Shown piece by piece: positions 18,576-47,580 of a stretch of DNA of 64,000 nt. Numbering within the stretch: the stretch's first letter is position 1; each line of letters begins with the position of its first letter. Both the position numbers and the translations under genes were made by a program. The notes beneath the pieces are model-generated. The model was not told the origin of the DNA. It made no database searches and was given only the letters and a program-made list of their open reading frames with translations. The DNA is from Bacillus sp. REN16 (GTDB lineage Bacteria > Bacillota > Bacilli > Bacillales > Bacillaceae_L), in contig NZ_JAJFZK010000003.1 in the NCBI RefSeq assembly GCF_020731355.1, positions 186,001 to 250,000 on the forward strand. The letters run 5' to 3'.

Positions 18576-19450
18576 GATGAAGGACTGTATGGGGATTTCT
18601 TTTGATCGGAATGGTCTTTATAGTTCTGATGAAGGACCAAATGAGGATTTCTTTGATCGGAATGGTCTTCATAACACTGATGAAGGACTGAACGAGTATT
18701 TCTTTCGATCAGAAAGGTCTTCATAGCACTGATGAAGTACCAAATGTGATTTCTTTCGATCGGAAAGGTCTTCATAGCACTGATGAAGGACTAAACAAGT
18801 ATTTCTTTCGTGCGGAATGGTCTTCATTGCCTTGATGAGAACCAAACGAGGATTTTTTTCGATTGGAATGGTCTTCATAGCACTGATGAAGGACTAAACG
18901 AGGATTTCTTTGGGTCGGAATGGTCTTCATAACCTTGATGAAGGACTGAATGAGGATTTCTTTTGATCGGAATGGTCTTCATTGCCTTGATGAAGAACCA
19001 AACGAGGATTTTTTTCGATTGGAATGGTCTTCATAGCACTGATGAAGGACTAAACAAGTATTTCTTTCGTGCGGAATGGTCTTCATAGCACTGATGAAGG
19101 ACTGAACGAGCATTTCTTTGGGTCGGAATGATCTTCATAACCTTGATGAAGGACTGAATGAGGATTTCTTTTGATCGGAATGGTCTTCATTGCCTTGATG
19201 AAGAACCAAACGAGGATTTTTTTCGATTGGAATGGTCTTCATAGCACTGATGAAGGACTAAACGAGGATTTCTTTGGGTCGGAATGGTCTTCATAACCTT
19301 GATGAAGGACTGAATGTGATTTCTTTCGATCGGAATGGTCTTCATAACCAGCATGTAGAGGATTTCGCATGAGTTTCTCGGACCAATTCCCCTTCATAAC
19401 CCGGATGAAGTGGATTTCACATCAGTTTCTCGGACCAAAACCCTTTCATC
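18576..19450. repeat. Tandem array A1: about 15 units of 51-52 bp with internal dyad
   Basis: Core GGAATGGTCTTCAT recurs at 18608, 18659, 18711, 18762, 18814, 18865, 18917 and onward to about 19330, always 51-52 bases apart, followed after 4-8 bases by TGATGAAGGAC. TTCAT and ATGAA can pair. Two degenerate units end the array near 19448. A three-unit pattern (centres GCCTT, AGCAC, AACCT) recurs. It fills the gap between the convergent ywjG and pyrG. Shares its core with array A2 (45938-47580). Confidence 0.92.
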
Positions 19451-19454
19451 GATC

Positions 19455-19488
19455 AAAAAAAATGGCGAGTGTGCATTCACTCGCCATT
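19455..19488 (-). terminator. Terminator of pyrG
   Basis: Perfect stem AATGGCGAGTG/CACTCGCCATT (19461-19471 with 19478-19488), then eight T on the minus strand. It separates pyrG from array A1. Confidence 0.92.
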
Positions 19489-19497
19489 TCACATATC

Positions 19498-21105
19498 TTA
19501 CATTTTTTCAGCATTTGTTAAAGATGCTTTAATAAATTCTCTGAACAATGGTTGTGGACGGTTTGGTCTTGATTTGAATTCCGGGTGGAATTGTGATGCC
19601 ACAAACCATGGGTGGTCTTTCAGCTCAATGATTTCCACTAGACGTCCATCTGGGCTTGTCCCTGAGAAGACAAAGCCTGCTTCTTCCATTGCTTGACGAT
19701 AATGGTTGTTAAATTCATAACGATGACGATGGCGCTCATATACTACTTCATCATTGTATGCCTCATATGCCTTAGTTCCTTCTTCAATTTTACAAGGGAA
19801 TAGTCCAAGACGTAATGTTCCGCCTAAATCCTCAACATCCTTTTGCTCTGGTAACAGGTCAATAATTGGATGAGGCGTATCTGGGTTTAGTTCAGCAGAA
19901 TGTGCACCTTCTAAACCTAGTACATTTCGTGCAAACTCAACAGATGCTAGCTGCATACCTAGGCAAATCCCTAGTAATGGCGTTTTTGTCTCTCTCGCAT
20001 ATTTTAAGGCTTCAATTTTTCCGTCCACGCCGCGGTCACCGAAGCCGCCAGGAACAAGAATTCCATCTGAGCCTGCAAGTAACTCCGCCACATTTTCATT
20101 TGTAACTTCTTCAGAATTAACCCAGTTGATATTGATATCTGAATCAAATGCGTAGCCGGCATGCTTTAATGCTTCAGCAACAGATAGATACGCATCTTGA
20201 AGCTCAACATATTTTCCAACTAACGCAATATTTGTCGTTTTAGTTAGGTGTGTCACTTTCTCAACGAGATTGATCCAATCTGTCATGTCAGCTTCATGGC
20301 AATCTAGTTGAAGATGCTCACATGCAATTTGGTCTATGCCTTGTTCTTGAAGCGATAACGGGATTGAATATAGTGTTTCCGCATCACGGCTCTCAATAAC
20401 CGCTTTAGGATCGATGTCACAGAATAGCGCAATTTTTTCCTTCATATCCTCTGAGATTGGCATTTCTGTACGAACCACGATGATATTTGGCTGAATTCCA
20501 AGGCTACGAAGCTCTTTTACACTGTGCTGAGTTGGCTTTGTCTTCATTTCTCCAGCAGCTTTAATATATGGAACAAGTGTACAATGCACATACATCACAT
20601 TGCGGGAGCCCACATCACTCTTGATTTGACGAACTGCCTCCAAGAATGGAAGTGACTCGATGTCACCTACCGTACCACCGATTTCAGTGATAACGACGTC
20701 TGCATTTGTTTCATGGCCTGAACGGAATACTCTTTCCTTGATTTCATTCGTAATGTGCGGGATAACTTGTACGGTTGCACCTAAATAATCACCGCGACGC
20801 TCTTTCTTTAACACCGTTGAATAGATTTTACCTGTAGTTACATTGCTATATTTATTAAGGTTAATATCAATAAAACGTTCATAGTGACCTAAGTCCAGGT
20901 CAGTTTCAGCGCCGTCATCCGTAACGAACACTTCCCCATGCTGGTACGGGCTCATTGTTCCTGGATCCACATTTATGTATGGATCGAATTTTTGAATTGT
21001 TACATTCATTCCACGGTTTTTCAATAAACGCCCTAAAGATGCGGCAACAATCCCTTTTCCTAAGGACGATACAACCCCACCTGTTACGAAAATATATTTA
21101 GTCAT
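19498..21105 (-). CDS. pyrG: CTP synthase
   Basis: 535 aa from the ATG at 21105 (GGGGGAAAAAGAAAG upstream). It aminates UTP to CTP. The N-terminal synthetase domain starts [17 protein letters not shown] and holds CTP/UTP-binding motifs; the C-terminal class I glutamine amidotransferase (about 290-535) has the nucleophile in GICLGMQLA and the His-Glu pair in SQFHPEFKS. Expression is set by the CTP-sensing leader at 21215-21329. Confidence 0.97.
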
Positions 21106-45884: not shown

Positions 45885-45897
45885 TTTGGATGGGGCA

Positions 45898-45916
45898 GGG
45901 ACAGGTTCCTTGTCCC
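45898..45916. repeat. REP-like hairpin after pbpG
   Basis: GGGACA (45898-45903) and TGTCCC (45911-45916) around GGTTCCT. Similar to the GGGGACGGTTC repeats at 26054-26155. It might slow transcription at the pbpG 3' end. Confidence 0.5.
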
Positions 45917-45937
45917 ATTTGTGCTATACAGTTACCT

Positions 45938-47580
45938 TATGAAGGACTTTTTGGGTGTGATTTTCACTCTGAATGGTCTTCAACCCACCTATGAAGGACT
46001 TTTCAAGCGTGTTTTTCACTCTGAATGGTCTTCATACTACCTATGAAGGACTTTTCAAGCGTAATTTTCCTTTGAATGGTCTTCATACCGTCCATGAAGG
46101 ACTTTTCGAGCTTCATTTTCACTCTGAATGGTCTTCATACTACCTATGAAGGACTTTTCAAGCGTAATTTTCCTTTGAATGGTCTTCATACCGTCCATGA
46201 AGGACTTTTCGAGCTTAATTTTCCTCTGAATGGTCTTCATGCGCCTATGAAGGACTTTTCGAGCATGTTTTTCTCTCAGAATGGTCTTCATACCGCCTAT
46301 GAAGGACTTTTCGAGCTTAATTTTCACTCTGAATGGTCTTCATATCACTTATGAAGGACTTTTCGAGCATAATTTTCCTCTGAATGGTCTTCATGCGCCT
46401 ATGAAGGACTTTTCGAGCATGTTTTTCTCTCAGAATGGTCTTCATACCGTCCATGAAGGACTTTTCGAGCTTAATTTTCACTCTGAATGGTCTTCATGCC
46501 GCCTATGAAGGACTTTTCAAGCGTAATTTTCCTTTGAATGGTCTTCATACCGTCCATGAAGGACTTTTCGAGCTTAATTTTCCTCTGAATGGTCTTCATG
46601 CGCCTATGAAGGACTTTTCGAGCATGTTTTTCTCTCAGAATGGTCTTCATACCGCCTATGAAGGACTTTTCGAGCTTAATTTTCACTCTGAATGGTCTTC
46701 ATATCACTTATGAAGGACTTTTCGAGCATAATTTTCCTCTGAATGGTCTTCATGCGCCTATGAAGGACTTTTCGAGCATGTTTTTCTCTCAGAATGGTCT
46801 TCATACCGTCCATGAAGGACTTTTCGAGCTTAATTTTCACTCTGAATGGTCTTCATGCCGCCTATGAAGGACTTTTCGAGCGTAATTTTCCTCTGAATGG
46901 TCTTCATACCGTCCATGAAGGACTTTTCGAGCATGTTTTTCTCTCAGAATGGTCTTCATACCGCCTATGAAAGACTTTTCGAGCTTAATTTTCACTCTGA
47001 ATGGTCTTCATACCGTCCATGAAGGACTTTTCGAGCATGTTTTTCTCTCAGAATGGTCTTCATACCGTCCATGAAGGACTTTTCGAGCTTAATTTTCACT
47101 CAGAATGGTCTTCATGCCGCCTATGAAGGACTTTTCGAGCGTAATTTTCCTCTGAATGGTCTTCATACCGTCTATGAATGACTTTTCGAGCGTAATTTTC
47201 CTCTGAATGGTCTTCATACCGTCTATGAATGACTTTTCGAGCGTAATTTTCCTCTGAATGGTCTTCATACCGTCTATGAATGACTTTTCGAGCGTAATTT
47301 TCCTCTGAATGGTCTTCATACCGTCCATGAAGGACTTTTCGAGCATGTTTTTCTCTCAGAATGGTCTTCATACCGCCTATGAAAGACTTTTCGAGCTTAA
47401 TTTTCACTCTGAATGGTCTTCATACCGTCCATGAAGGACTTTTCGAGCATGTTTTTCTCTCAGAATGGTCTTCATACCGTCCATGAAGGACTTTTCGAGC
47501 ATGTTTTTCTCTCAGAATGGTCTTCATACCGTCCATGAAGGACTTTTCGAGCGTAATTTTTGCTCTGAATGGTCTTCATC
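45938..47580. repeat. Tandem array A2: 32 units of about 51-52 bp with internal dyad
   Basis: TGGTCTTCA occurs 32 times in 1.64 kb at 51-52-base spacing, followed by TATGAAGGACTTTTCGAGC or a close variant. TTCATA and TATGAA pair around a short CCGTCC-like loop. The remaining bases (AATTTTC, CTCTGAA) are also conserved, so these are not CRISPR spacers. A 359-bp block (seven units) is duplicated: the segment from about 46281 repeats at about 46640. It lies between convergent pbpG and ywhD and shares its core with A1. Confidence 0.95.

Follow-up and report, generated by a model that had tools for sequence, protein, structure and literature searches.

Tandem arrays of a 52-bp dyad unit near gene 3' ends in Bacillus sp. 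REN16: putative binding arrays for a dimeric protein

What are the long tandem arrays that fill gaps between genes of Bacillus sp. REN16, and what keeps their units alike? The question arises from a stretch of 64,000 nucleotides (hereafter the window), which comprises positions 186,001 to 250,000 of contig NZ_JAJFZK010000003.1 (C23:186001-250000 in our coding) of RefSeq assembly GCF_020731355.1, a genome of 4.64 Mb in 73 contigs that is coded G000. An earlier note, made from the letters of the window alone, had described two arrays with a common dyad, A1 and A2, to which no named element seemed to fit, and had offered a protein-binding array, a structured 3' RNA or a chromosome-organisation site as possible explanations. 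The present analysis places the arrays in a published class of 52-nt tandem repeats and favours the first of these options, at the level of DNA: the arrays would be binding arrays for a putative dimeric DNA-binding protein, with one site per five helical turns and bent linkers, at the 3' ends of genes, a reading to which we assign a probability of roughly 55%.

Tandem Repeats Finder (TRF) and a dyad scan bear out that A1 and A2 are tandem 52-bp arrays with a common dyad in one orientation and, as the note had counted, about 15 and 32 units. A third 52-bp array of other sequence, A3, which lies between two minus-strand genes, had been overlooked.

18575..19346, plus strand: main block of A1, about 15 units of 52 bp with arms TGGTCTTCAT / ATGAAGGACT (TRF: period 52, 14.9 copies)
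19340..19449, plus strand: diverged pair of A1 units at the pyrG end, with CCCCTTCAT-type arms (TRF and comparison by eye)
45938..47579, plus strand: A2, 31.9 units of 51-52 bp with arms TGGTCTTCAT / ATGAAGGACT (TRF: period 52)
30875..31273, no strand given: A3, 7.7 copies of a 52-bp unit of other sequence, without the CTTCAT dyad (TRF)

Scanning the window for GGTCTTCAT-N7-ATGAAGGAC with up to three mismatches yielded 42 matches, every one inside A1 or A2 (40 on the plus strand, the other two being reverse-strand echoes of A1 units), as compared with a mean of 0.08 and a maximum of 2 in 100 shuffled controls. A1 as a whole holds 16 dyads at distances of 52 bp (eleven times) and 51 bp (four times), while in A2 the dyads follow each other at 52 bp (13 times), 51 bp (eight times) and 102 bp (four times), in addition to two false in-between dyads.

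Tandem repeats of this length have been surveyed by Subirana and Messeguer (2021, PMC8161180; an earlier survey is PMC6749651), who reported 1886 arrays of 51-53 nt in 176 Bacillus genomes and about 30% of species. The class was described as constant in length and devoid of sequence conservation, with no reason given for the 52, and with short signals that are common within species, often together with their reverse; as explanations the authors suggest a DNA-polymerising protein or small RNAs (PMC8161180). A1, A2 and A3 are members of this class, and the claim that no named element fits is thereby corrected. They have units of 51-53 bp in at least four copies by TRF, they are likewise non-coding and intergenic, with several families per genome and a presence that varies between species, and the published unit coagulans 8_52_18 has the same core as A1 and A2. 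The core letters, used as a literature query, returned PMC8161180 first among the matches listed; among the papers listed by a full-text search, judged by titles and the beginnings of abstracts, none explained the 52. As far as the sequences tell, three features are new with respect to PMC8161180, namely a dyad that recurs across genera, arms that are specific to a genome, and helically phased A/T tracts.

The recurrence of the dyad, in contrast to the published lack of conservation, emerged from the search of the own and related genomes that the earlier note had proposed. Pairs of the pattern CTTCA-N9-TGAAG separated by 18 to 48 bases, which allows spacings of 37-67, are present in 49 of 396 genomes of the order and in 24 of 135 genera, while the reversed control matched in two genomes (G054 and G112); among the matches listed, the spacing is nearly always 52, with a few of 46-53. 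In a sample of 250 genomes of the class, 22 of which belong to the order, a single one of the 228 outside the order gave matches (G525). One array query against plasmids and another against phages returned no match, which is weak evidence, given single and differing queries.

Within the own genome, a piece of A2 used as query revealed further arrays on at least C3, C4, C6, C12, C14, C45, C70 and C73, which match A2 at the dyads and far less in the spacers. The note had held that single copies scattered all over would make a dedicated function unlikely. CTTCA-N9-TGAAG occurs at 128 places of the whole own genome, against 13 for the reversed control, which does not resemble such scatter, albeit not cleanly so, as 16 of the 50 matches listed of the 128 lie outside arrays, at or somewhat above background. 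Moreover, in a 440-kb sample of this genome, picked largely around hits of the A2 piece, 80 of 115 CTTCA..TGAAG dyads with an inner gap of 3-15 have a gap of exactly 9. A1/A2, A3 and a further array, L048, differ in sequence, so that several families coexist in the own genome. About 32 kb left of the window, an array of the same dyad with GGGTC/GACC-type arms was seen (G000 C23:153703-154345), and arrays of 52-53 bp without the CTTCAT dyad lie at L048 2085-2700 (own genome, 53 bp) and at L105 8311-8717 (G225).

The architecture of the unit was derived from two sets of arrays, whose loci were drawn from the matches listed with early positions favoured: set one, taken from two named relatives and 14 other genomes, holds 58 arrays to which TRF gave a period of 50-54, and set two comprises 92 dyad-chained arrays from 16 genomes, 90 of them with exact 52-bp steps. 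The dyad is found in 55 of the 58 arrays of set one, the exceptions being A3, L048 and L105, and consists of two arms, each about 10 bp long, that flank a centre whose length is fixed at 7 bp and whose sequence is freer. Since an array was identified by dyads with no more than one mismatch in TTCAT/ATGAA, the search itself accounts for part of the conservation seen in the inner arm, whereas the outer five positions took no part in it. It is these outer bases that vary between genomes and agree among the arrays of one genome: the consensus arms are TGTCCTTCAT..ATGAAGGACA in G131, G225, G021 and G158, and nearly so in G156, TGAACTTCAT..ATGAAGTTCA in G373, and AGGTCTTCAT..ATGAAGACCT in G233. As judged from these alignments, the half-sites are kept to one consensus per genome, most weakly in G000.

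The spacers serve as a background against which this agreement can be judged. In 86 of 503 within-genome array pairs, spacer identity falls below 0.361, where shuffled spacers give about 0.31, and at such chance-level spacers the outer arms still agree at 0.78, as opposed to 0.49 in 2138 between-genome pairs with spacers of that kind. By genome, the agreement amounts to 0.95 in G233 (15 pairs), 0.93 in G225 (3), 0.87 in G063 (3), 0.84 in G252 (10), 0.73 in G000 (16) and 0.70 in G373 (36). Because the outer arms agree in spite of spacers that have drifted to chance, the arms seem to be held by something that acts on all arrays of a genome.

Whether the two arms answer to each other distinguishes a hairpin from a pair of protein half-sites, since arms that must pair would have to follow each other's changes within a unit. 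A comparison of the two arms in 373 distinct dyads gave 1463 matches at 1865 outer positions, against 1431 +- 12 expected when right arms are shuffled within genomes (P 0.007) and 1440 +- 7 when they are shuffled within arrays, where none of 1000 shuffles reached 1463. The excess implies that some pairing or conversion effect exists, yet it corresponds to 5-7% of the compensation that full pairing would demand, which weighs against a hairpin. Non-pairing cells in set one are, moreover, mostly other than G.T (103 G.T, 75 A.C, 212 other). Arms that vary nearly independently argue for two protein half-sites, and we read the dyad as two such candidate half-sites, each held to one consensus, with a minor effect of pairing or conversion.

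B-DNA makes one turn per approximately 10.4-10.5 bp, and A/T tracts that recur in phase with the turn bend it. In the 25-bp spacers of 90 arrays (16 genomes), the frequency of AA/TT steps has maxima of 0.4-0.65 at distances of about 15, 26 and 37 bp from the dyad centre, whereas position-shuffled spacers give 0.22. An independent spectral test was made on 21 units without the CTTCAT core, comprising A3, L048, L105 and 18 published units; among the 27 sequence rows of Table 1 of PMC8161180, six had first been dropped for their lengths (50, 51, 54) and three with a CTTCAT core were set aside. In these 21 units, AA/TT power at one fifth of the unit (10.4 bp) is 0.122 versus 0.050 in shuffled units (z 7.2); 2727 intergenic windows have a power of 0.058, and none of 5000 samples of 21 windows reaches 0.122. 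Harmonics 4 and 6 are without excess and harmonic 7 shows a slight one (z 2.1), while, taken singly, 8 of the 21 units have harmonic 5 as their strongest among 13, where about two are expected. The result holds when the six rows are restored (n=27, z 7.9, with harmonic 7 at z 2.9), for those six alone (z 3.4), and for the 20 units left after removal of lito42, a near relative of the core with GTTCAT (z 7.4). As the families may be related, these spectral figures are upper bounds on the number of independent cases.

With respect to genomic placement, which the earlier note had wished to see mapped, the 92 arrays of the 16 genomes comprise 45 in convergent, 43 in tandem and 4 in divergent contexts, while 992 other junctions at the same loci comprise 165, 628 and 199, respectively. 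The corresponding odds ratios are 4.8 for convergent (p 1.6e-11) and 0.18 for divergent contexts (p 6e-5), with the reservation that arrays from the same genome do not count as independent cases and that gene calling relied on a simple longest-open-reading-frame script, by which some flanks are wrong (e.g. L053). The convergent share differs by genome, being 4 of 18 in G233 and 13 of 23 in G373. Among the 43 tandem cases, 30 arrays have the 3' end of the preceding gene as their nearer neighbour (medians 104 and 234 bp), and the units in tandem contexts are oriented with the gene sense in 20 cases and against it in 15, without clear bias. No clustering toward origin or terminus was seen: both genomes that were mapped have arrays all along the chromosome, and the positions among the matches listed do not deviate from a uniform distribution by Kolmogorov-Smirnov test (p 0.98 for 19 arrays of G373 and 0.10 for 18 of G233; the contig starts are not shown to be at dnaA), which bears on the option of a chromosome-organisation site.

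Taken as a mechanism, a dimeric protein with sequence specificity would bind once per 52-bp unit, and a linker carrying the phased A/T tracts would separate one binding site from the next. Such a site would be composed of two half-sites of about 10 bp, with CTTCAT as the inner and genome-specific bases as the outer part, on either side of the 7-bp centre of fixed length. Because 52 bp equal five turns of B-DNA, all sites of an array would face the same side of the DNA, and the linker between two sites, with a tract every 11 bp or so, should be bent toward one side. An array thus occupied may form a regular nucleoprotein block near gene 3' ends, often between convergent genes, and could serve as a barrier against read-through and against supercoils driven by transcription, as has been proposed for the repetitive extragenic palindromes (REPs) of Escherichia coli and the bacterial interspersed mosaic elements (BIMEs) composed of them.

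Several observations weigh against this proposal. The step of A2 is 51 bp many times, and the outer arms of G000 are mixed and often not palindromic. The tracts are not universal: G158 and G225 lack the centre tract and G066 barely has it, while G233 and G391 lack the edge tract, so that each of the two stands above the trough in 14 of 16 genomes. The 10.4-bp signature is non-exclusive in the CTTCAT arrays, whose harmonics 5, 7 and 9 are about equally raised, the constant TTC/GAA of the dyad being superposed on the tracts. Spacer identity within one genome is 0.50, versus 0.31 in shuffled spacers, and hence points to some common ancestry of spacers; the excess of arm matches is real, and arrays appear and vanish between congeners. 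A search for the gene of the binder, with dyads 4-34 bp before GGAGG and ATG, gave matches in 14 of 49 array-bearing genomes and no recurrent gene. An autoregulated binder gene was rejected as a candidate: among 13 loci read, most matches fell in arrays or before frames of less than 20 aa, and the dyads before real frames (L125, L126 and L137, by eye kinase-like, membrane-protein-like and ribosomal-S6-like) have no gene in common.

A wider version, which we regard as possible though on balance doubtful, would make all 52-nt satellites of Bacillales, irrespective of sequence, one device: a nucleoprotein lattice of five-turn, phased and bent units with a dyad site, in which a putative fast-changing binder keeps the arrays of a genome in step, the satellites insulating gene ends as bacterial counterparts of protein-organised satellite DNA. 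It would then be the DNA helix that fixes the constant 52. For the arrays compared here, a concrete reason for that number lies in five turns of 10.4 bp together with the phased tracts, and the comparison also yields a common two-fold site. Since the outer half-site differs between genomes, the protein of one species should prefer the arm of its own species, which makes the species-specific arm a handle for finding the binder. If the reading as protein-bound arrays is true, a Gram-positive group would carry many dedicated protein-organised arrays at the ends of its genes.

Among the rival explanations, a neutral satellite, in which slippage or unequal recombination creates and erases functionless arrays, survives best, although we consider it improbable. 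It accords with insertions being least harmful at gene ends and with the turnover of arrays, whose presence and length vary between species at one place and between strains of B. coagulans (PMC8161180). At the place between ywjG and pyrG, where A1 resides, B. timonensis (L051) has a large array, L053 has 4.4 copies by TRF plus diverged units and L054 a few units, whereas L050 and L052 have gaps of 78 and 94 bp and L049 a different insert of 1250 bp. By eye, A1 and the L051 array are mosaics of the same order, GGAC-type at the ywjG end and CCCC/GAGG-type at the pyrG end, of which each species expanded a different part; the diverged A1 units (19340-19449) look like units of the orthologous B. 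timonensis array. The A2 place holds 32 units in G000, 2.9 copies by TRF of a CCCC/AGAGG type in G006 and no array in G002-G005, G007 and G008; in G001 the contig ends there. Erratic length, which the earlier note had named as a sign against a dedicated function, is thus a fact between species, and it speaks against a local role that is essential, while leaving selection on the arms untouched. Neutral drift leaves unexplained the 52-bp period in many genera, the arms that are kept while spacers drift to chance, and the tract phase common to unrelated families.

Slightly less probable is a structured RNA, that is, 3' untranslated regions or read-through transcripts with hairpins that end or stabilise messages or sequester RNA-binding proteins. 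B. coagulans arrays are present in RNA-seq data (PMC8161180; PMC8625621), arrays lie near gene 3' ends, and the small excess of arm compensation points the same way. The evidence from folding is marginal at best: of six pieces of two units each, three reach z of -1.7 to -2.1 (lowest -2.07), the remaining ones giving -1.33, -0.43 and +0.72. Near-independent arms, orientation without bias and the lack of any Rfam 15 match in A1, A2 and A3 at gathering thresholds (three matches in the window) stand against it, and the helical phase of the tracts would have no meaning for RNA. The option of a structured 3' RNA is therefore not favoured over a protein-bound DNA array.

A spread of REP/BIME-like mobile palindromes by a REP-associated tyrosine transposase (RAYT) is rather remote. 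REPs are intergenic palindromes enriched between convergent and unidirectional genes (PMC3733652), and the arrays here, likewise intergenic palindromes mainly at gene ends, share the convergent and 3' bias. The Y1 family (PF01797) occurs in 15 of 16 array-bearing genomes, to which this search was confined, and longer RAYT-like frames, judged by frame length, in 13 of 16. RAYTs are, however, reported as always flanked by REPs (PMC2817692), whereas none of 20 Y1 loci bears an exact TTCAT-N7-ATGAA dyad, and G003, with 85 dyad pairs, has no Y1 hit. No GTAG/CGTC tag was seen by eye in 55 array consensus dyads with 9-bp flanks, and the arrays are strict head-to-tail 52-bp units, unlike REPs and BIMEs. 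Membership in the REP/RAYT system is hence rejected on the flanking gene and the tag, although the placement resembles that of REPs. The arrays may work like a BIME without being one. BIME-2 is reported to bind gyrase (PMC2817692 and PMC3733652). RAYT-like Y1 frames of about 150-315 aa (L204-L223), up to several per genome, were noted without exact CTTCAT dyads nearby, and a decayed Y1 transposase remnant, IS200-type by eye and with two in-frame TGA codons, lies at 56198-56533 of the window, about 8.6 kb right of A2.

Core sites of tyrosine recombinases generally consist of arm, fixed-length centre and arm, a layout that the constant-length, variable-sequence centre fits, but arrays of such sites, grown and shrunk by recombination, are very unlikely, as no recombinase is linked to the arrays (recombinase families were not searched) and the five-turn period and phased tracts would stay unexplained. 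With clustered regularly interspaced short palindromic repeats (CRISPR), the arrays have in common a repeat, partly palindromic, that alternates regularly with a spacer; as the earlier note had argued, they differ because the spacers repeat within A1 and A2, with a step of 52 bp, an argument that holds for the spacers, no search for Cas genes having been made.

Both arrays of the window fill gaps between convergent genes, as described before.

18020..18562, plus strand: DUF2529 (ywjG-type) gene, convergent partner left of A1 (PF10740, E 3.3e-60)
19498..21126, minus strand: CTP synthase gene (pyrG), convergent partner right of A1 (PF06418/PF00117)
19459..19490, minus strand: intrinsic terminator of pyrG, adjoining A1 (terminator scan)
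43815..45884, plus strand: gene of a bifunctional penicillin-binding protein (PBP), convergent partner left of A2 (PF00912/PF00905)
45898..45916, plus strand: modest terminator-like hairpin between the PBP gene and A2 (terminator scan)
47632..47675, minus strand: terminator-like hairpin with a T run between ywhD and A2 (by sequence only; absent from the scan output)
47785..48294, minus strand: ywhD, convergent partner right of A2 (PF08741, E 1.6e-86)

Of the minus-strand terminators placed beside the arrays, that of pyrG was recovered by the scan, while the one on the ywhD side was missed by it; the statement that no strong terminator precedes A2 is only roughly right, given the modest hairpin behind the PBP gene. 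Six relatives of the DUF2529 protein, from Bacillus and Ferdinandcohnia (spelled Fredinandcohnia in the records), have 82-87% identity.

Further elements were noted in passing. Bacillaceae-1 RNA (RF01690) occurs twice in the window, at 17896-17962, just upstream of the DUF2529 gene beside A1, and at 8681-8743. A 125-bp element (15608-15874; 2.1 copies, 96% matches) has a similar counterpart of 3.1 copies in B. timonensis (L051 3551-3940), at a corresponding distance from ywjG. Tandem repeats of 20/40 bp, of ACTGCCACTA type and others, lie at 35075-35170 of the window, at L047 4484-4794 and at L036 1-614, and probably belong to the other published class, that of 20-21 nt; at 60396-60481 there is also a weak tandem repeat of 20 bp with 4.3 copies and 68% matches.

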